63,099 bases of DNA from positions 1 to 63,099 of the forward strand of contig JAUYJN010000015.1 of NCBI GenBank assembly GCA_030700255.1. Reading direction: 5' to 3'. The notes beneath the pieces are model-generated. The model ran no database searches. It saw nothing but the letters and a program-made list of their open reading frames with translations, and was not told where the DNA came from. Position 1 is the stretch's first letter, and the number at the start of each line of letters is the position of its first letter. The position numbers and the translations under genes were made by a program. The stretch comes from Candidatus Peregrinibacteria bacterium. GTDB lineage: Bacteria > Patescibacteriota > Gracilibacteria > UBA1369 > JABINC01. This document shows positions 42,689 through 56,089 of this stretch, one piece after another.

Positions 42689-43714
42689 ATGCCAAAATTC
42701 TCCTGGAACAATTTGCCCCACCCAATTATTTGCCTCGCTCCGATGGCGGGTTATACAGATTCAGCGTATCGCCAACTCATCAAAATGATAGCCCCGGAGG
42801 TTATTTGTTTTACTGAATTTACAAATGTCAAAGGTCTCAAATATGGTTCCAAAAGAACGCTAGCTCAAGTTGGATTTAACCCGGAAATAGAACGACCAAT
42901 AGTTGCCCAGATATTTGGAAAAGAACCTGATGATTTCGCAGGAGCGGCAAAAATGCTAGAAGAAATGGGAGTTGATGCAATAGATATAAATATGGGATGT
43001 CCTGCGAAAAAAGTTGTATCTTCGGATCACGGGTCTGCACTATTCAAAAACCCTAACTTGGCTGCACAAATAGTAGAAGCCACTGCAAAGGCGACATCTT
43101 TGCCGGTATCAATAAAAATGAGACTTGGAACCAAAGATAAGGATGCAAAATTTCTAATTGATTACTGTAAAGAAATGGAATCATGCGGAGCTGCTTTGAT
43201 TACTATTCATGGCCGCACTGCAAAACAAATGTACACAGGAATAGCTGATTATGAATTAATTTATGAAGTAAAAAAGAATGTAAAAATCCCAGTAATAGGG
43301 AATGGTGACGTCGTTTCCGTAGAATCCGCAAAAGAAAAGCTAGGAAACCTGGACGGCCTCATGATCGGCCGTGGCACCATGGGCAACCCATGGCTTATGG
43401 CTGAGGTTTGGCATGCTTTTCATGACGACAAAAACTCCCCAGATTACACACCATATGTACCCCCACTCACTTTTTCCGAAAAGCTCCCATGGACACTCAA
43501 ACACATGGAGCTCTCTGTCGAGACCAAAGGCGAAAAACGCGGAGTCATGGAAATGCGCAAATACCTTGCGATGAGCGTAAAAGACTTCCATGGAGCATCC
43601 GAATACCGCCAGCGCCTCGTCCGAATGGAGACTTATGACGAAGCAAAAAAACTCCTCCTCGAAATAAACGAACATTTCGGAGATTTGGAGACCAAAGTGG
43701 TTATGATGGACTAA
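42689..43714 (+). CDS. dus: tRNA-dihydrouridine synthase (Dus)
   Basis: A 341-residue FMN enzyme reducing specific uridines of tRNA to dihydrouridine. The TIM-barrel motifs are all present: CLAPMAGYTDSAYRQL (~16-31), IVAQIFGKEPDDF, AIDINMGCPAKKV with the catalytic Cys, SIKMRLG, LITIHGRTAKQMY, and the phosphate-binding IPVIGNGDVVS and DGLMIGRGTMGNPWL. The C-terminal helical domain follows. Length is typical. Its stop overlaps the convergent neighbour by four bases. Confidence 0.95.
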   Translation: MPKFSWNNLPHPIICLAPMAGYTDSAYRQLIKMIAPEVICFTEFTNVKGLKYGSKRTLAQVGFNPEIERPIVAQIFGKEPDDFAGAAKMLEEMGVDAIDINMGCPAKKVVSSDHGSALFKNPNLAAQIVEATAKATSLPVSIKMRLGTKDKDAKFLIDYCKEMESCGAALITIHGRTAKQMYTGIADYELIYEVKKNVKIPVIGNGDVVSVESAKEKLGNLDGLMIGRGTMGNPWLMAEVWHAFHDDKNSPDYTPYVPPLTFSEKLPWTLKHMELSVETKGEKRGVMEMRKYLAMSVKDFHGASEYRQRLVRMETYDEAKKLLLEINEHFGDLETKVVMMD

Positions 43715-45108
43715 AACTTAGTCCCCATCAATTCCATTCTTTTTCTATATCTTACTTCAAAAGGCTCTACCGGTTTTGGAATCCCATGCTTTTCATAAAA
43801 TTCTAATTCTTGCTTTGAATAATTCAAATCACAGAAATCCGTAACAGTGCCCCATCTCACAGCCATATCTGCATCAAAAAGATCATATGCAATTGTGTCT
43901 TCGTATTTAAACGGACTTAAATTCATTGGGAAAAATCGCCCAAATTCACCAGAAATGCGCATTTTTTCAATCAACTCGGCAACTTTAATATCGTATTCTT
44001 CTTTAGAATATTCTTTATTAAAAATATGATATTTCTTACCGCGGAGCCCAATACAACCAAAACAATCCTGACAATTAATAGTTAAGTAACAATATCTCAT
44101 GTTTGAGCTATGCCAGGTAAAAGCACAGTTATAAACATTTTGAGAATCAATTCCTGTGGCGATGCACTGATAACACATTTCAATTCGATCATTACACATA
44201 TACGAATCAATGATATCTTTGCCCTTAGCATTTTGAAAACCATTGAAACAATCCCTCAGATCAAAACTTTCAAAAAGTCTCTCGCAATCCTTTGAATTTT
44301 TTAAATATTTACTTGAAGAAACATCTTCACAATTCTCAAGCCACTCTTCCTCAAGATTTTTACTTCCAACAATAGTATCTCTGAAATACTTTTTAAACTC
44401 TTCCATTGTTTCAAAATCCGAAAAATCAATTTTTGAAATAAACTCTTCGTACTGCTCCTTTGTATACTGTTGATTATAAATACAATATTGCTGATTGCGT
44501 AGCCCTGAGCACATAAACGAGTTCTGAGTATTCCTACAATCAAAAAGAAAATACGAATCTGTCGCCTGCTTACAGTTATAGCTATACCGCGTATTATAAC
44601 AATTAAACATATATACACACTCATACAGAAGCTCTGATTCCATTGCAAAATAACAATCCACACAAGACTTACAATTATACATTCTCACAGAGTAATAAAT
44701 ATCCTCCCCAGTGATCGCATCAAAAACTATATATGAATTCTTAAGACCTTCGACATCATGACAATATTCAGCATTTTGTTGTTGAGTGGAAAGCAGAGTC
44801 ACGACAGGAGCGATTTTTTGAAGATCAGCAAACTGCTCAAATACAGATTTTTGAGGATCAATTTCTATACCTGGAGACATCCAATCGTCTTTGTACCATT
44901 CATCATGAGAATAAATCGGACAAGTACTTTCTGGTGGATAAACTGAAATTATCGTTTTCCCAGATTTATTTGACTGCCGTTTATAAAACTTTTTATTCGG
45001 ATACCAAGCCATAACCGCCCGAAGTCGCTCACGCGAATTTGGATTTTTGGCATATACATGGCCCATTCCCAGTTTTTCATACAGTTTTCTAGCGAATTCA
45101 GATACCAT
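43711..45108 (-). CDS. Cys-rich protein with repeated CxxC units, CPR-type
   Basis: A ~465-residue soluble protein. It holds a series of short repeats containing C-x(2-5)-C (CKSCVDCYF, VYMFNCYNTRYSYNCKQ, YFLFDCRNTQNSFMC, DRIEMCYQCI, INCQDCFGC) separated by strands, twice leading to a matching element: GLRNQQYCIYNQQYTKEQYEE (~220) and GLRGKKYHIFNKEYSKEEYD (~385). The pattern suggests a solenoid with metal-bound turns. I do not know a function. A TTG at 45117 adds three residues; the ATG at 45108 is preferred. No signal peptide is seen. Confidence 0.65.
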   Translation of the reverse strand: MVSEFARKLYEKLGMGHVYAKNPNSRERLRAVMAWYPNKKFYKRQSNKSGKTIISVYPPESTCPIYSHDEWYKDDWMSPGIEIDPQKSVFEQFADLQKIAPVVTLLSTQQQNAEYCHDVEGLKNSYIVFDAITGEDIYYSVRMYNCKSCVDCYFAMESELLYECVYMFNCYNTRYSYNCKQATDSYFLFDCRNTQNSFMCSGLRNQQYCIYNQQYTKEQYEEFISKIDFSDFETMEEFKKYFRDTIVGSKNLEEEWLENCEDVSSSKYLKNSKDCERLFESFDLRDCFNGFQNAKGKDIIDSYMCNDRIEMCYQCIATGIDSQNVYNCAFTWHSSNMRYCYLTINCQDCFGCIGLRGKKYHIFNKEYSKEEYDIKVAELIEKMRISGEFGRFFPMNLSPFKYEDTIAYDLFDADMAVRWGTVTDFCDLNYSKQELEFYEKHGIPKPVEPFEVRYRKRMELMGTKF

Positions 45109-45239
45109 CTTATACAAGAGAAATTCTAATCAAGAGAATTGTAAAGCTATATTAAGTAATCAAGCAAGTAGAAGTAATTACGCATTCCTAAATTTTGAAG
45201 CCAATATGCTGATAACATAACAAAAAAACACATCAGTCA

Positions 45240-45473: not shown

Positions 45474-46544
45474 ATGAGTGACCAAGTAAACAAAATTCTT
45501 AAGACGGCGGTTGAATATGGGGCTTCTGACGTGTTCATTTCCTGTGGTAGTAAGCCATCTTTACGTATTAATGGGGATTTGGTGATTATCGATCAACATG
45601 ATGAAGTTGATGAGATGATATTCGAGGAATATTTGAACTTTTTGGCGACAGATAGCCAAAAAAATAAATTTGCAGAAACACGAGATTTGGATTTTTCAAT
45701 ACATATAGAAAATCTAGGACGATTTAGAGTAAATATGTTTGTCCAAAGAAAAGGCCCTTCAGCAGTACTTAGGCCAATTCCACATAACATAAAATCCATA
45801 GATGAGCTTAATCTACCAGAACAACTTAAGGATATAACCAAATTAGAAAGTGGACTTATATTGCTTACAGGGCCAACCGGTTCCGGTAAATCCACCACGC
45901 TAGCTGCAATGATAAATGAAATTAATACAGCAAATGCCAAACATATTATTACAATTGAAGATCCAATCGAATTTGTACATGACAACAAAATGTCAATTAT
46001 AGAACAAAGGGAAGTTGGTACACATACAGATAGTTTTGGGACGGCGCTCCGCGCCGCCCTCCGCGAAGACCCGGATGTAATCCTAGTCGGAGAGATGCGA
46101 GACCTTGAAACGATCGCTATGGCGGTAACAGCTGCTGAAACAGGCCATCTGGTCTTCGGCACCCTGCATACAGCAGGGGCTCCTAATACAATTGACCGTA
46201 TTATCGATGTATTCCCTCCGAATCAACAATCTCAGATCAAAACGCAACTTGCGATGAGTCTGAAAGCCGTGATCTGGCAAAAACTAATTCCAACGATCAA
46301 TGGTAAGACTCGCATCCCCGCAATCGAAATAATGATGAATACAAATGCTATCGCAAACCTGATCCGCAAAGGATCGACTCATCAAATTTACTCATCAATG
46401 GAAACCGGAATGCGTGAAGGTATGCAGACAATGTCAACCGCACTGCGAACACTCGTCCAACAAGGCCACATCACGGAGAATCAAATGATGTACCACCTCG
46501 GTGAAATCATGGAAGACGAACCAAATAACCAACAGCAACAATAA
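45474..46544 (+). CDS. pilT: PilT-type pilus retraction ATPase
   Basis: A 356-residue hexameric secretion-superfamily ATPase that drives pilus retraction. The N-terminal domain (1-~110) leads to Walker A GPTGSGKS (133-140), the Asp box IEDPIEF (161-167), Walker B DPDVILVGEMRD (199-210) and the His box GHLVFGTLHT (224-233). Length matches PilT (no N-terminal GspE-type N1 domain). The next gene starts on the last base of its stop, so pilT heads an operon of five VirB2-like proteins rather than sitting with pilC/pilN/pilO, which are 5-10 kb away on the other strand. Confidence 0.95.
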   Translation: MSDQVNKILKTAVEYGASDVFISCGSKPSLRINGDLVIIDQHDEVDEMIFEEYLNFLATDSQKNKFAETRDLDFSIHIENLGRFRVNMFVQRKGPSAVLRPIPHNIKSIDELNLPEQLKDITKLESGLILLTGPTGSGKSTTLAAMINEINTANAKHIITIEDPIEFVHDNKMSIIEQREVGTHTDSFGTALRAALREDPDVILVGEMRDLETIAMAVTAAETGHLVFGTLHTAGAPNTIDRIIDVFPPNQQSQIKTQLAMSLKAVIWQKLIPTINGKTRIPAIEIMMNTNAIANLIRKGSTHQIYSSMETGMREGMQTMSTALRTLVQQGHITENQMMYHLGEIMEDEPNNQQQQ

Positions 46545-47161
46545 TGAAAAAATTATTTCTTACAATTTGGCTACTCACACTCTTAATCCTACAGCTAACA
46601 ATGCCACTAACAGCATTTGCAGGGCCTGGTGATTCAGTCCCTGGAGAAGAAGACCTAGCATTGGATGAAGGAGAAACTTTTAATAGTGCTTTAGACTCTG
46701 AATCATACGGTGTAGATGATGAAGGCTCCATCAGTGGGCCCTCAGAACACAATGATGCAGATGCTGAACGACTAAGAAGAGAATCTTTAACAGGATCACA
46801 AATGTTCAACGAAGATTGCTACGGATATCCAAATGGGGATAGTACGGATTCTTCGGATTTTGCACTTAAGATAGATTGTATTCTAGATACAGACGAACAA
46901 GATCAATCTTATTTTAATTGGGGGTGGCGGACGGCTCCAATCGAAAAAGTAATCATCAAAGCTATAAATTATCTAATGGCAACTATCGGATCTGTCGCAA
47001 TGTTACTTATAGTCATTGCAGGGCTTATGATGATAACTAGTCCGGCAGATGAAAACCAAAGATCAAAAGCTATAGAAATTTTACAATCATCAATTGTTTC
47101 CTTGGTGGTTGCCTTTTCTGCGTACATAATAGTAAATGCAGTTGAAGGACTATTTTATTAA
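46544..47161 (+). CDS. VirB2-like T4SS pilin-family protein 1
   Basis: A 205-residue protein: signal peptide (FLTIWLLTLLILQLTMPLTAFA), a long Glu/Asp/Ser-rich acidic linker with two Cys, then a C-terminal pair of TM segments separated by a charged hairpin: AINYLMATIGSVAMLLIVIAGL, TSPADENQRSKAIEILQ, and SIVSLVVAFSAYIIVNAVEG. This layout fits the small TrbC/VirB2-like pilin family seen in CPR and mycoplasmas. It begins on the last base of the pilT stop. Confidence 0.75.
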   Translation: MKKLFLTIWLLTLLILQLTMPLTAFAGPGDSVPGEEDLALDEGETFNSALDSESYGVDDEGSISGPSEHNDADAERLRRESLTGSQMFNEDCYGYPNGDSTDSSDFALKIDCILDTDEQDQSYFNWGWRTAPIEKVIIKAINYLMATIGSVAMLLIVIAGLMMITSPADENQRSKAIEILQSSIVSLVVAFSAYIIVNAVEGLFY

Positions 47162-47164
47162 AAT

Positions 47165-47569
47165 ATGAAAAAAACAATTAAAAAAATCGGATTACTGGGA
47201 CTGTTCTATACTCTAAGTTGTATACAAATCGTAACAACATTTGCAGCGGGAACAGATGCACCGGGTGAAAGCACAAAAATAACAGTTGAGCTCAATGAGC
47301 CAATTGGAGACGTCGCCATAGTTCAATCAGAAACAGCAATGGGATTTATCGTTCAATATTTGAGAATTATGTATAACTACGGAGCTGCAATGGTCGGAAT
47401 AATTTGTGTACTAGTTATCGCAGTAAGTGGAATGCAATATGCATTTAATTCTGAATCTGCGGAGGAAGCAAAAAAAAGAATTATCAATTCTTTGAGTGGA
47501 CTCGCCGTACTCTTCTTATCAGCAATCTTCTTATATTTTATCAATCCAAACTTTTTCCAAGCCGGATAA
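47165..47569 (+). CDS. VirB2-like T4SS pilin-family protein 2
   Basis: A 134-residue protein: signal peptide (LLGLFYTLSCIQIVTTFAA), a short linker, then TM (YGAAMVGIICVLVIAVSGMQY), charged turn (NSESAEEAKKRIINS) and TM (LSGLAVLFLSAIFLYFINP). It matches its neighbours in the AGxxY...E.AK pattern between the TMs. Three bases after protein 1. The mature part is short (~110 aa), the size range of VirB2 pilins. Confidence 0.75.
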   Translation: MKKTIKKIGLLGLFYTLSCIQIVTTFAAGTDAPGESTKITVELNEPIGDVAIVQSETAMGFIVQYLRIMYNYGAAMVGIICVLVIAVSGMQYAFNSESAEEAKKRIINSLSGLAVLFLSAIFLYFINPNFFQAG

Positions 47570-47573
47570 ACAA

Positions 47574-48113
47574 ATGAAAAAAACAATCCACACAATTGGT
47601 AAGATTTTCAAAAAAAGTATAATTACACTTAGTCTTATATTATGCTTAATTGCAGTTGCGCAACCGGTAATAGTTCATGCGGAAGACACAACATGTGCAA
47701 ACAATACACAAGATAGTAATGATACGGGGACGGCTGTCAGCAACCCTTGCGTTGTTCCACCAACTATCCCAAAACCAGACACATTGCCAGGCCCGAGCAC
47801 TGCTACTGACACAGGGCTCAATCATGAAAGATATTTGATCACTGATCTCATACCAACCTTGATTCGCGGAGCTATAAATCTCCTCGGGGGAATAACTATT
47901 ATCGCTATCATGTATGCGGGTATCCAATACCTAACAGCATTTGGAGATGACACAAAACTTGAGGCCGCAAAGAAAAATCTTATCTATGCAATAATAGGTT
48001 TGATGATAGCAATGTTCTCATACACAATAGTTCGTATAATTAGCGACGTACCACTTTCTAGTACAAATGAAATCCCGGAAGCAACAAGTGATACTACATA
48101 CCAGGTACCATAA
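47574..48113 (+). CDS. VirB2-like T4SS pilin-family protein 3
   Basis: A 179-residue protein read from the ATG at 47574, four bases after the previous stop; an upstream frame-in start overlaps the previous gene and is rejected. Signal peptide (ITLSLILCLIAVAQPVIVHA), a Thr/Pro-rich linker with two Cys, TM (INLLGGITIIAIMYAGIQYL), turn (AFGDDTKLEAAKKNLIYA) and TM (IIGLMIAMFSYTIVRII). It has the clearest AGIQY...EAAKK family pattern of the five. Confidence 0.8.
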   Translation: MKKTIHTIGKIFKKSIITLSLILCLIAVAQPVIVHAEDTTCANNTQDSNDTGTAVSNPCVVPPTIPKPDTLPGPSTATDTGLNHERYLITDLIPTLIRGAINLLGGITIIAIMYAGIQYLTAFGDDTKLEAAKKNLIYAIIGLMIAMFSYTIVRIISDVPLSSTNEIPEATSDTTYQVP

Positions 48114-48119
48114 AAAATC

Positions 48120-48527
48120 ATGAAAAAATTATTCAATAAAATTCGAACTTCAGCAATGGTTCTCTGCCTACTCGCACTACCACAAATAGTTAATGCAAAA
48201 GTTAACTTGGAAAGTGTATTCAAAAAATACAGAATCAACGGTAGGACTGAATACAGCGAACTCAACAATGTGGCGAATTTGCCGGATCCGGATGTAATCG
48301 ATTTAATTATAGAGATTATAAAAATAATATTACGAATATCCGGCATACTTACATTCTTGGCACTAAGCATCGGTGGTATAATGTACATAATTTCGAGAGG
48401 TGAAGGTGACGGGACAATGCTTGAGAATGCAAAGAAAACAATGATCTGGTCAGTTGTCGGAGTTATTATAATCATGTCCGCTTACGCAATCGTCTACGGA
48501 ATCACCACAATAAAATATAACGTATAA
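48120..48527 (+). CDS. VirB2-like T4SS pilin-family protein 4
   Basis: A 135-residue protein: signal peptide (AMVLCLLALPQIVNA), a short linker, TM (IILRISGILTFLALSIGGIMY), turn (SRGEGDGTMLENAKKTM) and TM (WSVVGVIIIMSAYAIVYGI). Six bases after protein 3. The IGGIMYIISRGEG..ENAKK region matches the family. Confidence 0.78.
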   Translation: MKKLFNKIRTSAMVLCLLALPQIVNAKVNLESVFKKYRINGRTEYSELNNVANLPDPDVIDLIIEIIKIILRISGILTFLALSIGGIMYIISRGEGDGTMLENAKKTMIWSVVGVIIIMSAYAIVYGITTIKYNV

Positions 48528-48531
48528 TTGC

Positions 48532-49023
48532 ATGAAAAAAATTCTACAAAAATTAAGTTATCTTGGAATAATGTTGCTAGTGCAATTGTCATCAGTAAAA
48601 CTTGCATATGCTGATGCGGCAACTGATGCGGCGGCGAATGCCGCCGGAGACACAGGCCCAACAACGGCACCTCCACCAGGTACAGACCTTTCAACACTCG
48701 ATCAAGAGACGGGCATACGTATAAACAATGCTTTCAAACCTATCAATGCACCCGAGGCAATAAATCAAAATTACACGAGTGACACAGTGAATGCATTTCT
48801 ACAATTCCTTGCCGGAAGTATTATAGAACTCACAGCAGGGGTAGCGATTTTCGTACTTGTTATCGCAGGTTATATGTTCGTCACCGCAGGCGGTGACCAA
48901 GGCCGAATAGACAAAGCCAAAGAAATCATCAAATACACAATCTTCGGAATCCTAATGGTGATACTTTCATTTGTAATCATTAAAAGCGTCATCTCACTCG
49001 TCATCGAAGTCGATACTTTTTAA
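48532..49023 (+). CDS. VirB2-like T4SS pilin-family protein 5
   Basis: A 163-residue protein: signal peptide ([17 protein letters not shown]), an Ala/Thr/Pro-rich linker, TM ([21 protein letters not shown]), turn ([17 protein letters not shown]) and TM ([19 protein letters not shown]). Last gene of the pilT operon; overlaps the stop of the convergent metG by four bases. A perfect GC hairpin (48629-48646) lies in the linker coding region. Confidence 0.78.
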
Positions 49024-50552
49024 ATCACTTCTATCCTGGGAAAAAGTGATTCACCTTTTTTTACGCTATAACTTCCTTGAACTTCAAACATGTTTTCAAA
49101 ATTGAAATCATCTGTGGATAAGCCAAGTGATTCAAAAACTAAAACAGCTTTATCAGGAATAAATGGAAGCAACATAACCGCCATCACACGTATCACTTCA
49201 AGTAAGTGAAATAATGCAAATGCCAGTTCATCGTTTTTTGAGCTGTCTCCTTCGGCGGCAAGCTTTGCGAGTGCCCAAGGCTTGTTATCTTCTACAAATT
49301 TATTTGCGTATTCAGCGACCTGCATAGATTTTTCAGTTGCAAGCTTGATATCATAATCTTCAAAAGCCTTGGCATAATCAGCATACAATTCTTCAATCGT
49401 TTTTAATGAATGTTCACCACCTTTATCAGCCATTGATTTACTTATCTTGCCATCAAAATATTTCTCCACCATTGCAACTGTACGAGAAACCAGGTTCCCA
49501 ACATTGTTTGCAAGATGCGCTTCGTAGCTTTCGAGAAAACGATCTTTTGAGAAATCCCCATCATCTTGAGTTGGCACTTGAGAAAGCAAATAATAACGAA
49601 GCGCATCCGCCCCGTAAACAGCCGCAAACTCTATCGGATCAACTACATTCCCAAGTGACTTACTCATTTTTTTACCTTCTGAAGTGACAAATCCATGCAC
49701 GTATAATTTTTTTGGTAACGGTAAATTTGCAGATTTAAGCATAGCCGGCCAATATATCGCATGAAATTTCATAATATCTTTCCCAATAATATTTATATCT
49801 GTTGGCCAGAATTTTTTATAATCCTCAGAGTCCTGCGCATACCCAAGTCCAGTCAGATAGTTCGCCAAAGCGTCCGACCAAACATACATCACATGTTCAG
49901 GATCGTCAGGAACAGGCACTCCCCAAGGAAGTACTGATTTTGGACGAGAAAAACTAATATCATTCAAATCCTTTAACATATTTTTTATTTCCGAAACTCG
50001 AAACTCAGAAACAACCTGAAGTTCTATGCCAATATGTTCATTTAACCAAGGAATATATTTTGAAAGTTTGAAAAAATAATTCTCTTCTTTGAGTACTTCA
50101 GGCGCACGCATGTGATTTGGACACATACCATCTACCAAATCCTTCTCTAGCATGTAATTTTCACACCCTGAGCAATAAAGCCCTTCGTACGCAGCTTTGT
50201 ATATATCACCTGCATCAACAAGTAATCTCCAAAGTTTCTGAGCTCCGGCTTTTAACATTTCGTCTGAAGTTCGAAGAAAAAGATCATTGCTTATATTTAA
50301 CTTTTCACACATATCTTTGAAATATGGCACATTGTGATCAAGTAATTCTTCAGGGGTCATACCTTCTTCTTTTGCAGTTTTATAAATTTTTGTCCCATGC
50401 TCATCGGTACCGGTTGTAAACATCACGTCAAAACCGGCTAATCTATAAAATCGTGCCAAAGCATCCGCCTGCACAAATTCAAGAGCATGCCCAATATGCG
50501 GTTTCGCATTTGGATAAGCTATAGCTGTCTGAATAGTAATCTTCTTTTGCAT
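49020..50552 (-). CDS. metG: Methionyl-tRNA synthetase
   Basis: A ~510-residue class I synthetase for tRNA-Met. The HIGH motif is PHIGHAL (19-22), Zn ligands are in [14 protein letters not shown] and CPNH, and KMSKS is [11 protein letters not shown]. The catalytic CP domain and helical anticodon-binding domain are complete; the C-terminal EMAP-like dimer domain is absent. The start ATG at 50552 ([15 protein letters not shown]) is preferred over a GTG 30 bases upstream. Confidence 0.97.
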
Positions 50553-50629
50553 AAATTTTGAAATTCGTAAAAAAGTAACCACACTCTATACCAAAGATAA
50601 CACATCTAACAAGCCAAGATGCACTATAT

Positions 50630-51742
50630 TTAGTGAATCTCAGGCTGATTTTGATACCAAACGAAGTCCGTAAATGGTGAAGCTTGGTCTAGTGGGCGAA
50701 TAACATCAATACTCTGAACAAAATCTTCATTTGGACTATGCCCATCTGCACTAATGTGAACTGCGCTACAGGCGATAGTAAAGCGTTCTCCGGCCGCTAT
50801 GTCAGGGTTTGGATTAACCCTATAATAAAGATCATAGTCATTTGCATTGTAAATAAGCGGAAGTTCAGGGTCTGTTGGCGGTATAACATTCAAATAATTA
50901 GTCAGCATCAGTTCGTTATTTCCATGTGAAGAGAGGAAATCAGAAATCATATAATCCGGATGGAAAATATAATGGAATCCACCATCCGCAAAATTATTAC
51001 TATATGCATCTATATCAAGATAAAGCGAATCAGCGGTAGCATCGAAAGTTGCACCCTCTATAATGTCGTAATACTTACCTTTTTGAAAAGGTAGGGCATC
51101 AGCACTTGTACCAAATGTAGATGGAGTATCCGGAGTATTGTGAGTTACATCATTAATTGGGAAATAATCAGAAATCGCTTCAAGGGCACCCAAGGAATCA
51201 CCTAACGAACGATTACCCAAAATCTTCCAACGAAGCACGTCGTTTAACATAATGAGTGAAGGATCATTGCTCGTGGTATTATCAGGATAAGCAGTGTTCA
51301 CTATATAATATTCAACATTAAAAACATTATTACCATTCAGTGGAATCACGACTGATTCTCCGGATTTCAAAACTGCAAAACCATCTGCTGTTTTATTTTC
51401 AAACACACATGGATTCCTACCACCTCGTGCAGTAACTGTATAAGAATATTTTGATTGTGAAACTTGAGAGATATCTTCTTCATCAAACGCATCTGTAACA
51501 AATGGGATAGAAGAAGTTTGCGAGATATCTTCGCCTGCATTGTTCACACTAACTTGCAAAAGTGCATCTTCAACGCCGGCCTCTGCACTATAATAAGCCT
51601 TCACTCCTTCCAAGAAATTTCGCTCTGAGCGAACTTCGTTGAGAAGCATGTAATTCACTGCAAAAGAAAGCACGATAAGTATCGACATAAAAAACAATGA
51701 CATAACCAGTGCGGAACCTTTCTTTGAAACTAATTTATTCAT
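50630..51742 (-). CDS. PilX-like pilus assembly protein
   Basis: About 370 residues from ATG 51742 (MNKLVSKKGSALVMSLFF). The N-terminus, KGSALVMSLFFMSILIVLSF, is the hydrophobic PilX/PilV-type helix that follows a basic leader, then NEVRSERNFLEGVKAYYSAEAGVEDALL, a common sequence after the TM in PilX and other type IV pilus minor proteins. The large C-terminal region is beta-rich with few Cys. The in-frame GTG at 51796 lies inside a REP-like repeat and is rejected. It is the last gene of the pilus operon. Confidence 0.8.
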   Translation of the reverse strand: MNKLVSKKGSALVMSLFFMSILIVLSFAVNYMLLNEVRSERNFLEGVKAYYSAEAGVEDALLQVSVNNAGEDISQTSSIPFVTDAFDEEDISQVSQSKYSYTVTARGGRNPCVFENKTADGFAVLKSGESVVIPLNGNNVFNVEYYIVNTAYPDNTTSNDPSLIMLNDVLRWKILGNRSLGDSLGALEAISDYFPINDVTHNTPDTPSTFGTSADALPFQKGKYYDIIEGATFDATADSLYLDIDAYSNNFADGGFHYIFHPDYMISDFLSSHGNNELMLTNYLNVIPPTDPELPLIYNANDYDLYYRVNPNPDIAAGERFTIACSAVHISADGHSPNEDFVQSIDVIRPLDQASPFTDFVWYQNQPEIH

Positions 51743-51750
51743 AATTTTAT

Positions 51751-51808
51751 TGTTACTTCGCGCCTTATTGCGCATAGCCAGTTCGCTTCGCTTCACGGCA
51801 TGCGTGAT
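51751..51808 (-). repeat. REP-like intergenic repeat, copy A (reference copy)
   Basis: Minus-strand order: GCCGTGAAGCGAAGCG, CTGGCTATGCGCAATAAGG, CGAAGTAACAAT. It shows the family best, and it lies between the pilW-like and pilX-like genes, overlapping the last bases of the pilW-like gene. Arms CGCAT(A)GCC and GGCATGCG can pair. Confidence 0.7.
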
Positions 51809-52473
51809 GAAACTGTCGTTTGAATGTCAAAAGAAATACTATCTCGAATTTGACTATCCCCGGTAAGTGATAAATAAATCTGTACATATGGTGAAACAGA
51901 TGGATCGGGCTGAGCCGGCTTAATAACAAAATATGCATTTTGAACTTCTAATTTTTCAAGATTCATATTTTGGAAACCATTATCTGCAGGACCATAATAT
52001 CCATCCGCATTACTTGGCACCCAGCCGTTTTGACCTTCATTATATTCTTGTACGATTTTTTTCAGTACGACACATGGATCACCGGTAGAGTCGCAAGCAT
52101 CCTCTGATTTTATAACAACTCTCTTGCCGTCCGGTCTTATAATTGCGAGAACATTCCCATTTATAGATTCACCAAAAGCGTCAATAGTATAACCTTCACA
52201 AGTTGCATTTCCAGGTTGATAACAGTCGTAAGCGATGCTAGCTCCACGCGCGACTTCTATCATTTCATCCATCAAGAAACGAGATTCAGAATAAAGTTTG
52301 CGGAGCTCATTTGTATCGCGCGCTGCGCGCGTCAAAAACAAATAGCTACTCGCAAGCGCTCCAATAAACATTGCAAATACAGTCATCGCAACTAGAAGTT
52401 CGATCAAAGTAAAAGCCTTACGATTACCTCGGTTTTTTTTCAAATCCAAATTTTTTATCGAAGATATTTTCAT
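51793..52473 (-). CDS. Type IV pilus prepilin-like protein (PilW/GspJ type)
   Basis: A 226-residue prepilin-type protein. After a 19-residue basic leader (starting MKISSIKN) is the prepilin-peptidase motif KAFTLIELLVAM, with Ala before Phe and Glu at +5, then the hydrophobic helix. The rest has paired Cys (CYQPGNATCEG; ACDSTGDPC) suggesting disulfides outside the cell. Minor pseudopilins of this kind prime pilus assembly. Shares a 29-bp start region with the next upstream gene. Confidence 0.88.
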   Translation of the reverse strand: MKISSIKNLDLKKNRGNRKAFTLIELLVAMTVFAMFIGALASSYLFLTRAARDTNELRKLYSESRFLMDEMIEVARGASIAYDCYQPGNATCEGYTIDAFGESINGNVLAIIRPDGKRVVIKSEDACDSTGDPCVVLKKIVQEYNEGQNGWVPSNADGYYGPADNGFQNMNLEKLEVQNAYFVIKPAQPDPSVSPYVQIYLSLTGDSQIRDSISFDIQTTVSSRMP

Positions 52474-52475
52474 AA

Positions 52476-53111
52476 TTAATTATTCCAATCGGTTAATTCT
52501 GTATAAAGTTTTATTTCTTTATCGTTCCCCCTATCCACATAGTAAACTTTGCTCTCCACCAATACTTTCAAAATATAGTTGTCAGGAAGCGTCAAATCGT
52601 ATGAGCCACCAGGAGCATCTGAATTTAAAAGTACAGGTGTCACAGTAATAATCCTGTGAAAAGGTGTAGCATCCTCGCTTTCCAAATGTGAGTACTCAGT
52701 ATAACTACCATTTAGATTAACATCCTTATATAATAAATCATCATCAGGAGGTGAAGGGGCGAAAACATTAAAATCCTCTCCAATCTGACCATGTGAATCA
52801 ACTGCAAAAGCATAAGATCCGGATCCACTATAAATATCAGTCAACCAATTCCTATAATTCCTCCAGTTTGTGTCGCGAATATTTCTAGTAATTTCAATTC
52901 CTTCACGAGCGAGCTCAGTTGCAATTAGATGATTTTGATTCAAAGAATTCGCACGCATCATAGATATAGTCAACGATGAAATCGTGATAATAGTTGCCGA
53001 CAGAAGTGAGATCGCGAGCAATACTTCTACAAGAGCGAAGCCACGAACGTGGCGGAGCTCACTACATAAGCTTCTTTTCTTAAACCAATTTTTTATCGAA
53101 GATATTTTCAT
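52476..53111 (-). CDS. Type IV pilus prepilin-like protein (PilV/GspI type)
   Basis: A 211-residue prepilin-type protein. The leader (25 residues, beginning MKISSIKN) is followed by RGFALVEVLLAI, with Gly before Phe and Glu at +5, and the hydrophobic helix. The mature domain has AREGIEITRNIRDTNWRN, characteristic of PilV/GspI-like minor pilins. Its first 29 bases, including four bases before the ATG, are repeated at the start of the next gene downstream, 2 bases after its stop. Confidence 0.87.
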   Translation of the reverse strand: MKISSIKNWFKKRSLCSELRHVRGFALVEVLLAISLLSATIITISSLTISMMRANSLNQNHLIATELAREGIEITRNIRDTNWRNYRNWLTDIYSGSGSYAFAVDSHGQIGEDFNVFAPSPPDDDLLYKDVNLNGSYTEYSHLESEDATPFHRIITVTPVLLNSDAPGGSYDLTLPDNYILKVLVESKVYYVDRGNDKEIKLYTELTDWNN

Positions 53112-53139
53112 AATTTCATTTAACTTGTTAGAAAAAAAG

Positions 53140-53715
53140 TCACTGATATCGAAAGTTAAGTTGCCCTGATTTATTAATAGTTAATATTCCATCATTCGGA
53201 TAATCCGACAATGTATATGCAAAAGTCAAATCAACTGACCCAAATCCTAAATTATTTCCAAGTGATACACCACTTCCATCAAAGAATTGAACTGACCCCG
53301 TAGGCGGCTGGAACAAAACAGTCAAAACATGAATAGGTAAGCTATTCAAAGGAACGATCGATTGAAGTTCAACTCCGGATGCATGAGAAAGTGCTGAAGA
53401 AACATTCAAAGTATTACTACATTGACCGGCAGCATAATTACTCCAAACCGGAACATAAGAATTTTTATTTTCTTCAAAAGTATATCCTCTGCAAATTTGA
53501 TTTCCATTTGGTGAGAGGAATCCACTCTTAACCTCAGTTTGATCAAACCTTAGATTACTAGCTACTTGCTCCACCGACATTTGCAACTTCACCTGCTGTG
53601 AAGCTCTCCCAAGAGTATAAAAAGCAGTGAGCATGATAAGACCAAAAATAGTAATCACAACTAGCAATTCGATTAGTGTAAAACCTTTTTTTGAATTCGG
53701 GGACTTCATCTTCAA
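53140..53715 (-). CDS. Type IV pilus prepilin-like protein (FimT/GspH type)
   Basis: A 191-residue prepilin-type protein with a short basic leader (~10 residues) and the motif KGFTLIELLVVI, a Gly before Phe and Glu at +5. Following helix and the NLRFDQTEVKSGFLSPNG region match GspH/FimT-like minor pseudopilins. It lies between pilC and the PilV-like gene in one operon. Confidence 0.85.
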   Translation of the reverse strand: MKMKSPNSKKGFTLIELLVVITIFGLIMLTAFYTLGRASQQVKLQMSVEQVASNLRFDQTEVKSGFLSPNGNQICRGYTFEENKNSYVPVWSNYAAGQCSNTLNVSSALSHASGVELQSIVPLNSLPIHVLTVLFQPPTGSVQFFDGSGVSLGNNLGFGSVDLTFAYTLSDYPNDGILTINKSGQLNFRYQ

Positions 53716-53727
53716 TTGAGTTAGATG

Positions 53728-54918
53728 CTAAACAAACTGACTCAATTGGAAAATTGGTCCAAGAATTGCATAAGCCATAATTGCCACAAGTATACCTACG
53801 AACAAAATTACAAGCGGCTCAAGTATAGTCATCAAATTCTTGATCGAGTGATCAAGTTCTTTTTCATACTGACTTCCTATTTTTTCACAAATAGAAGCAA
53901 GTGTCGCTGACTTCTCACCTATCGCAATCATCTGAGTAACTGTAGATGGAAAAAGCAATGGCGCATCTTCAAGGGATGAAGAAATCTTCTCACCTCTCTC
54001 AACTGACATCTGCACATCAGAAATTTTCTCACTATATAAAACATTCTTCATAGACTCACTCAAAATCTTAAGAGACTTCGTGATTGGAAGCCCTGATTCA
54101 ACCAAAATTCCAAGTAAACTTACAAAACGAACAATTTCAGAATGTCTAAACAGTTCTCCTATAACCGGAAGTTTTAATTTCAAATAATCTAATTTAAATC
54201 TACCCATCACACTTGAACGATAAGCATTGAATGCAATGACGAGTCCGATCGAAACAATAACAACAGCAATCCAATAATTTGTAAGGAAGTCTGAAATCCA
54301 AAGTAGACATCTAGTCAAAAATGGAAGTGCATGCCCTGATTCAGAGAAAAACTTAAGTAGTTTTGGTAATACAAAAAGTACAATCACACCACCGGACAAG
54401 AAAAGAGCGATAAGTACTGTCGCCGGGTAAACAAGTGCGGAGCGGAGTTTAAGACCCATACCATAAGACCGTTCAAGCTGACTTGAAAGTTTAAAAAGCA
54501 TTCTATCCAAATGCCCAACGGATTCACCACTTTTTACTATTCCAATTTCACTATCATCAAAAACTTCAGGAAAATTCTCCATCGCAGCAGAAAGCGTCTT
54601 ACCTTTTTCAACATTGTATGCAAGCGTATTGATAATACGTCTAAGCCTCTCATTTTCAAATTTCTTTGAAAGAGTTTTGAGAGCTTCAAGTATCGACATA
54701 CCGGCATCAAGCATTACTGCAAGTAAATGGAAAAAGTATGATTTCTCTTTTAAACTAACGTTATGATTATCTATAAAGAAATCATTAATTCGTGAAAAAA
54801 GAGTATCATCCGAGTTATCATAAACACCATATACGATATCTTTTCTGTTAGAGGTATCTCCTAAATTTAACTCATTTAGAATTTTTTTAGTATCTTTTGA
54901 ATCGTCTCTATTTGGCAT
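53728..54918 (-). CDS. pilC: PilC/GspF inner-membrane platform protein
   Basis: A ~396-residue platform protein of type IV pili/type II secretion, on which the ATPase acts. Two repeated GspF domains are seen, each with a TM: LAVMLDAGMSILEALKTL (first) and LGILVESGLPITKSLKIL (second), plus LSGGVIVLFVLPKLLKFF and the C-terminal VAIMAYAILGPIFQL. Total length is normal. Start ATG 54918; a TTG six bases earlier also lies in frame. It joins pilN, pilO and pseudopilins in one operon. Confidence 0.92.
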   Translation of the reverse strand: MPNRDDSKDTKKILNELNLGDTSNRKDIVYGVYDNSDDTLFSRINDFFIDNHNVSLKEKSYFFHLLAVMLDAGMSILEALKTLSKKFENERLRRIINTLAYNVEKGKTLSAAMENFPEVFDDSEIGIVKSGESVGHLDRMLFKLSSQLERSYGMGLKLRSALVYPATVLIALFLSGGVIVLFVLPKLLKFFSESGHALPFLTRCLLWISDFLTNYWIAVVIVSIGLVIAFNAYRSSVMGRFKLDYLKLKLPVIGELFRHSEIVRFVSLLGILVESGLPITKSLKILSESMKNVLYSEKISDVQMSVERGEKISSSLEDAPLLFPSTVTQMIAIGEKSATLASICEKIGSQYEKELDHSIKNLMTILEPLVILFVGILVAIMAYAILGPIFQLSQFV

Positions 54919-54941
54919 ATACAAATGATATTATTTTATAT

Positions 54942-55478
54942 TTATTCTTGGTAATAACTTTCGATTGCGAGCGTAAACGTTACATTTGCAGATACATCAC
55001 GTGAAACTTCTAGTACTTGTACGGAAATATTTTTGACTCTCATTCTTCTCGCATTCTTTTCAATGTCTGCGAGTAGATTGATAAGATCTTGATAAGTCCC
55101 TTCAAAACCTGTCGACATCGTGATCACTCCAACTTTTGTATTAGGATCTGCTTTAGCGAGTGAAAACCCGATATTTTTGAGCTCGATACCTCTACTTTGA
55201 GCCAATCTGTTTAAATCTTTTATAAGACCATCTTGGTCAACCTCAGTTGGTACTTGTGCAAGTAGCAGTTGTCTCTGCGCCGCGCTCTCCGGAATTGAAG
55301 CTTTCAAACTCTCCAACTCGGCAACCGAATTTTTAAGATCATTAAGCTTTTGCTCCGACGCTACCAAGTTTTGTGTATCTTGAGCCAAAACTCCGCGCGA
55401 AGGTTGTATATAATACATATAAACCACCAGTATGGCAAGTACTAATATAAGCGAAATGATGTTTTTCTTATTTTGCAT
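54942..55478 (-). CDS. PilO-like pilus assembly protein
   Basis: A 178-residue protein: one N-terminal TM (IISLILVLAILVVYMYYI), a coiled-coil (LVASEQKLNDLKNSVAELESL), then the ferredoxin-like domain (LIKDLNRLAQSRGIEL, TGFEGTYQDLINLLADIEKN, ANVTFTLAIESYY). This is the PilO layout. PilN and PilO form an alignment complex between the platform and the outer layers. Confidence 0.85.
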   Translation of the reverse strand: MQNKKNIISLILVLAILVVYMYYIQPSRGVLAQDTQNLVASEQKLNDLKNSVAELESLKASIPESAAQRQLLLAQVPTEVDQDGLIKDLNRLAQSRGIELKNIGFSLAKADPNTKVGVITMSTGFEGTYQDLINLLADIEKNARRMRVKNISVQVLEVSRDVSANVTFTLAIESYYQE

Positions 55479-55510
55479 TGGATTTAATAATTAGTTTTTA
55501 TTGATTTAAT

Positions 55511-55558
55511 TGTTACTTCGTACCTTTTTTCGCAAGGCAAGCTTCACGCCTTGCGTCA
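55511..55558 (-). repeat. REP-like intergenic repeat, copy B
   Basis: Minus strand: GGCGTGAAGC, TTGCCTTGCGAAAAAAGG, ACGAAGTAACAAT; the last 13 bases match copy A. It holds the hairpin CGCAAGGC/GCCTTGCG (55531-55555) and lies between the PilN-like and PilO-like genes. Confidence 0.7.
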
Positions 55559-56089
55559 TTTTTCAAATTCAACATTCAGTGCGAAGCTGTAAACAGCTGC
55601 ATTTGTAGGGCTAGTGCCCTTTACTACGGATGGTACAAAAACATTTTTAACAAATGGTTTGTTATCCAAAATATTTATAAGATCAGCCACTCTATTGAAC
55701 GACTGAGCGAGTACTGCAGTAGTAATTGTCCCATTTTCATTACCTGAATAAGAACGATAAACAATATCATCAGGTGTCGCATCAAGTAACAATGTCAAAA
55801 TTTCTGACCATTTCACATCAACTGAATTTATCTTTTCAACAGCTTGGCTCGCAATCATCAAATGTTCTATTTGATCAGCTTCCAACTTAGTCATTTCCGC
55901 TTCAACTTCTTTCATTTCAGAATCTACCAAAGATTGCTCACCGGCAACATTTGCTATCGAATAAGCCAAAAACACCGCATAGAAAACAGTAGCTACTGTC
56001 AAAACAGCAACTATTTTATGTGAAAAACTCCACTTTGCCTTCAATTTAGAAGCCAGATCCAAACCTTTGTCATGAGATATTTGAGCCAT
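55556..56089 (-). CDS. PilN-like pilus assembly protein
   Basis: A 177-residue protein with a cytoplasmic N-terminus, a TM (IVAVLTVATVFYAVFLAYSI), a coiled-coil (EMKEVEAEMTKLEADQIEHL) and a ferredoxin-like C-terminal domain (ILTLLLDATPDDIVYRSYSG, VADLINILDNKPFVKNVF, YSFALNVEFE). First gene of the pilus operon PilN-PilO-PilC-pseudopilins. PilM and PilB are not in the window. Confidence 0.82.
   Translation of the reverse strand: MAQISHDKGLDLASKLKAKWSFSHKIVAVLTVATVFYAVFLAYSIANVAGEQSLVDSEMKEVEAEMTKLEADQIEHLMIASQAVEKINSVDVKWSEILTLLLDATPDDIVYRSYSGNENGTITTAVLAQSFNRVADLINILDNKPFVKNVFVPSVVKGTSPTNAAVYSFALNVEFEK

Follow-up and report, generated by a model that had tools for sequence, protein, structure and literature searches.

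The window analysed here is the whole stretch of 63,099 nucleotides on contig C15 (JAUYJN010000015.1) of a Candidatus Peregrinibacteria bacterium genome (1.37 Mb, 97% complete; standard genetic code at the locus). The part under study holds a gene for a PilT-type ATPase (pilT-A) followed on the same strand by five small pilin-like genes (p1 to p5), flanked by a tRNA modification gene, a convergent tRNA synthetase gene and a type IV pilus (T4P) operon, as follows.

dus, 42689..43714, + strand: tRNA-dihydrouridine synthase, assigned by neighbour clustering, with a relative (L202:1753-2775) matching Pfam Dus; conserved upstream flank.
pilT-A, 45474..46544, + strand: PilT-type ATPase, TIGR01420 450.6 bits, with the DotB and VirB11 models far under their cut-offs.
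p1, 46544..47161, + strand: 205 aa with a long acidic ectodomain; PF18895 30.4 bits; position-1 HMM 82 bits, others ≤37.
p2, 47165..47569, + strand: 134 aa; PF18895 29.6 bits; position-2 HMM 90 bits, others ≤27.
p3, 47574..48113, + strand: 179 aa; PF18895 36.9 bits; position-3 HMM 96 bits, others ≤71.
p4, 48120..48527, + strand: 135 aa; PF18895 28.3 bits; position-4 HMM 76 bits, others ≤49.
p5, 48532..49023, + strand: 163 aa; PF18895 28.0 bits; position-5 HMM 76 bits, others ≤52.
metG, 49020..50582, - strand: tRNA-synt_1g 345 bits and neighbour clustering; convergent to the array.
T4P-1 operon, 50630..56089, - strand: PilX-like protein, pseudopilins, PilC, PilO and PilN, assigned by Pfam.

An earlier note on this DNA had given the limits of pilT (45474-46544) and of the five genes (46544-49023) correctly and had rightly placed the T4P genes on the opposite strand, where they form the T4P-1 operon past metG. 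The stop codon of pilT-A and the start of p1 share one base (TAATG), the gaps from p1 to p5 measure 3, 4, 6 and 4 bases, and p3 has an alternative longer start upstream at 47496. Because all five pilins are 50-67% identical to those of a congener (L074), with changes mostly at third codon positions, p1 to p5 are real genes and not chance ORFs; codon comparison also indicated purifying selection in all five positions. Between dus and pilT-A, the opposite strand (43711-45117) encodes a protein of 468 aa whose repeats are rich in cysteine and tyrosine and which has no Pfam match; among the loci compared, only the source genome has it at this place.

All five products exceeded the curated cut-off (26.6 bits) of the VirB2-like family PF18895 (T4SS_pilin), with scores of 28.0-36.9 bits. 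None exceeded the cut-off of TrbC/VirB2 PF04956 (27.9 bits), which matched four of them weakly (≤22 bits) and p5 not at all, and scores with the Mbov_0395 family pilin-like conjugal transfer protein model NF045849 were 21.7-29.8 bits, under its cut-off of 40. The proteins follow one plan: a predicted signal, an ectodomain that varies between them, and a two-helix hairpin whose loop is charged. Hydropathy and motif analysis identified in most members a hydrophobic stretch at the N terminus that carries an AXA-like site and is predicted to be a cleavable signal, so that the combination expected of a VirB2-type pilin (predicted signal plus charged-loop hairpin) was found in most members, the hairpin being modelled for p3. 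The AF2 model of p3 was a plain helical hairpin (82-121/126-158; block pLDDT about 71-82, mean 62.7) for which Foldseek returned generic helical matches only, none with an E-value <0.001. Sequence searches of the PDB with p3 alone or with a 20-sequence profile yielded nothing useful, and no solved VirB2 relative was found by profile or fold searches. Identity between copies inside the window array was 12-32%. The previous description of five related, non-identical two-TM subunits was thus confirmed, all being PF18895 members distinct by position, and the shared AGxxY...AK pattern attributed to them held in part, p1 having neither the Y nor AKK and p5 carrying F.

To place the array in its lineage, 59 genomes of the order were surveyed, covering 16 families and 45 genera; since these genomes are relatives and many assemblies are fragmented, the counts below are not independent trials, though many families are spanned. 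PF18895 was present in 59/59 genomes, usually with about 15 matches each. Each of 28 PilT-linked loci contained exactly five domains, and leave-one-out position HMMs built from these arrays assigned 140/140 domains to their own position. Seven complete arrays unlinked to PilT, and new to the HMMs, also read p1-p5, and one further unlinked array read p2-p5 before being cut by a contig end. The domain tree was built from 40 complete arrays (39 from genomes of the order and one from a Candidatus Peregrinibacteria genome), all with five domains in a single order, and in it the positions formed separate pure clades containing 39/40 members for p1 and 40/40 for each of p2-p5, with low support (0.31) for the p3 clade. 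Identity was 34-52% within a position as against 24% between positions of the same genome, p2 being the most conserved position (52% mean identity). Nine further genomes had five consecutive PF18895 matches, judged from coordinates only, and a genome related at class level (L225) kept the p1-p5 order with HMM margins of 14-34 bits. The earlier note had proposed searching related genomes for the five-gene order, and both number and order proved to be conserved across the order.

One array departed from five: in genome G003, where no PilT was found, the locus (L201, on contig C4) had six domains, with p1 doubled and the last domain tying between p3 and p5. In eight genomes from three families (L100, L107, L109, L110, L200, L202, L203 and L237; f4, f9 and f11) p3 and p4 were fused in one ORF, always with five domains still; the hydrophobic signal segment of p4 was gone from the linker, with an AXA-like remnant in 7/8. 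These fusions suggest that p3 and p4 would be neighbours in an assembly. The position HMMs failed to resolve the arrays of other classes of the phylum, which had 3-8 domains in the loci read. At one such locus (L218, G185:C1), a run of eight T4SS_pilin-like domains preceded a lysozyme-like (SLT_3) protein.

The pilT-A product, above the TIGR01420 cut-off (319.1 bits) and with Walker A (GPTGSGKST) and AIANLIRKG motifs, is of the hexameric retraction ATPase type of the PilT/PilU family. DotB, a PilT-like ATPase able to serve a type IV secretion system (T4SS), was its second-best NCBIfam match; DotB and VirB11 belong to the same secretion-ATPase superfamily, but the cut-offs of their equivalog models were not reached (161.9 vs 463.3 and 54.2 vs 249.95 bits, respectively). 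PilT-A genes, linked to the array or unlinked, mostly retained an AIRNLIRE-like motif (A[IV]xN[LM]IRK). Thus pilT-A shares with T4P retraction ATPases its TIGR01420 score, its motifs and a T4P operon nearby, but it is operonic with T4SS-type pilins and not with T4P genes. A scan of named genomes returned PilT matches mostly from unrelated phyla, the closest being from Candidatus Peregrinibacteria (L115) and Candidatus Peribacteria (L116).

The array lay downstream of PilT-A on the same strand, mostly as an operon, in 35/59 genomes; PilT-A was located elsewhere in nine (families f3, f10 and f15), fell at contig ends in four, which count as neither linked nor unlinked, and was missing in 11. In 27 of 36 linked loci (35 of the order plus L115) PilT-A and p1 were ≤21 bases apart or overlapped, the other nine having a longer spacer. 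The wider neighbourhood was likewise syntenic, with dus and other genes upstream and metG, in many genomes followed by a T4P-1 operon, downstream, and metG was conserved 3' of the array even without PilT. The PilT slot between dus and p1 was occupied in family f4 by a conjugation ATPase of the VirD4/TraG type; in one locus it was in frame with p1 in a single 826-aa ORF (L200:3872-6352), and in two it ended exactly where p1 starts (L202, L203). Three genomes had FtsK upstream of the array instead. PilT is thus a frequent but not required partner of the array, which persists with PilT-A unlinked, with a VirD4-type replacement or with no PilT found, and PilT as an obligate partner was rejected. 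The proposal that PilT might power the five subunits is not established and is somewhat weakened, as the array was also kept in genomes with another PilT only. A second PilT paralogue, followed by a cyclic-nucleotide-binding protein, was detected on contig C16 of the source genome (L096:558-2554), and in some families this paralogue or a close relative was the sole PilT detected.

PilC was found in 58/59 genomes, often with at least two paralogues, and most genomes combined a T4P PilC with PilT-A as the sole PilT-type match. Together with the retained retraction-ATPase motif pattern, this makes it most likely that PilT-A is mainly a T4P motor, with a second role on the array being possible. 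In six f13 genomes (L076, L081, L084, L093, L101 and L102) the T4P-1 PilC was not found and PilT-A and the array were still linked, which fits either a PilT-array link or use with a second T4P, and PilT-A may act there on one of these or on both. As for the secretion context, a VirB4 orthologue was detected in 53/59 genomes, and in the source genome it was a 740-aa protein on contig C36 (P-loop_TraG 89.6 bits). Of two signs of a T4SS in Patescibacteria, VirB4 in the same genome was thus present there, and an array within 20 genes of virB4 was not, the array being on C15. No VirB4 match was found in G004, G023 and G032, near-complete genomes with the array in which assembly gaps are possible. 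Contig C1 of the source genome encodes two proteins (319 and 325 aa; L095:590-7382) with three T4SS_pilin-like domains each, adjoining a 1575-aa PKD-repeat protein with one such domain, after which comes a PKD protein of 790 aa; most genomes of the order have multi-domain ORFs like these.

The recurrence of the same five distinct pilins in an unchanged order suggests a surface machine with five parts, as opposed to interchangeable copies. We regard it as reasonably probable that p1 to p5 are five fixed, non-interchangeable VirB2-like subunits of one hetero-oligomeric envelope structure that is part of the chromosomal T4SS-derived machine of the order. The subunits would enter the membrane by Sec, be cleaved by signal peptidase and sit as N-out/C-out hairpins, each position taking a set place in an assembly that faces the host, be it a short pilus, a tip or a channel. 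The array and PilT-A are probably co-transcribed and, with PilT-A most likely being mainly a T4P motor, the operon would couple T4P approach with deployment of the five-part machine. Besides the positional evidence, the VirB4 orthologues and the VirD4-type ATPase of family f4 favour this reading. Counting against it are the separation of VirB4 from the array, the three genomes without a VirB4 match, the f13 genomes in which PilT-A and the array are linked but no T4P-1 PilC was found, the six domains of G003, the low support of the p3 clade, the relatedness of the genomes and the failure of profile and fold searches to find a solved VirB2 relative.

The evidence bears unequally on the alternatives. 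Interchangeable pilin variants, arising by tandem duplication and serving host range or antigenic diversity, would account for the low identity between copies and for ectodomains that differ much in length; set against the complete position assignment, the pure position clades, the constant five and purifying selection, this is very improbable, and positional orthology led us to reject it for this order as largely refuted. A rather doubtful but more credible alternative is that the five stay within the membrane as a channel or platform resembling VirB6 or CedA and at no stage build a filament outside the cell. Against it, the nearest curated family bears the name of pilins, and subunits of one domain with a signal and an exposed ectodomain resemble VirB2 and not VirB6; such a channel would nevertheless accord with a predicted fold that is a two-helix hairpin only, with the three-domain proteins of the same genome and with the relationship proposed between VirB2 and VirB6 (PMC9905601).

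It is unlikely that the T4SS has recruited PilT-A as an assembly or retraction ATPase, in the manner of VirB11 or DotB, to act directly on the structure built from the five subunits. The close spacing or overlap with p1 in most linked loci, the f13 genomes, the VirD4-like motor, another hexameric type, in the f4 slot and the DotB match all speak for such an action, but the array persists with PilT-A unlinked or with no PilT found, most genomes have PilT-A as their sole PilT-type match together with a T4P PilC, the DotB and VirB11 cut-offs were not reached, and synteny covers the whole neighbourhood and not the pilT-array pair alone. Known conjugative pili polymerise one pilin. Because F and T-pili have five-start strands (PMC5018250, PMC9905601), it is tempting to speculate, by analogy, that p1 to p5 might assemble as a VirB2-like heteropentamer, a filament or ring with each position supplying one of its five strands, handled by a PilT-family motor. 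We consider this improbable; if true, it would be the first conjugative-type pilus of five different obligatory pilins.

Returning to the five fixed subunits, the array resembles VirB2/TraA pilins (F pilus, PMC5018250; T-pilus and archaeal CedA1/TedC, PMC9905601) in its hairpin, charged loop and, in most members, signal; those pilins form filaments of a single subunit, whereas p1 to p5 are five different proteins under the PF04956 cut-off. The earlier note knew of no described system of this composition, but VirB2-like arrays have been published for Patescibacteria: arrays of 2-11 pilins occur in 383 assemblies, where variation, possibly for host adaptation, was suggested (PMC12102498), and a series of pilins is essential in S. 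epibionticum (PMC10633639), there numbering six (PMC12857230). Those arrays share with ours tandem divergent PF18895 pilins, a chromosomal location and VirB4 in the genome; as described there, they differ in their variable number and in being discussed as variation, whereas here five positions are fixed and orthologous order-wide, and the array is separate from virB4 and usually headed by pilT. The searchable text of the two open papers (PMC12102498, PMC10633639) makes no mention of PilT or of fixed positions. The kind of array is therefore already known, and the fixed five-position array appears to be new.

In this order of tiny, probably host-dependent Peregrinibacteria-type Patescibacteria, pilT thus usually leads five fixed pilins. 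Pilin arrays have so far been read as variable copies; five separately conserved parts across a whole order call for a fixed multi-subunit structure, and the composition of a Patescibacteria T4SS becomes directly testable. Motor partners also differ between families, most having PilT, one having a VirD4-type ATPase in the equivalent slot and others having neither, so that the order provides a natural experiment on them.
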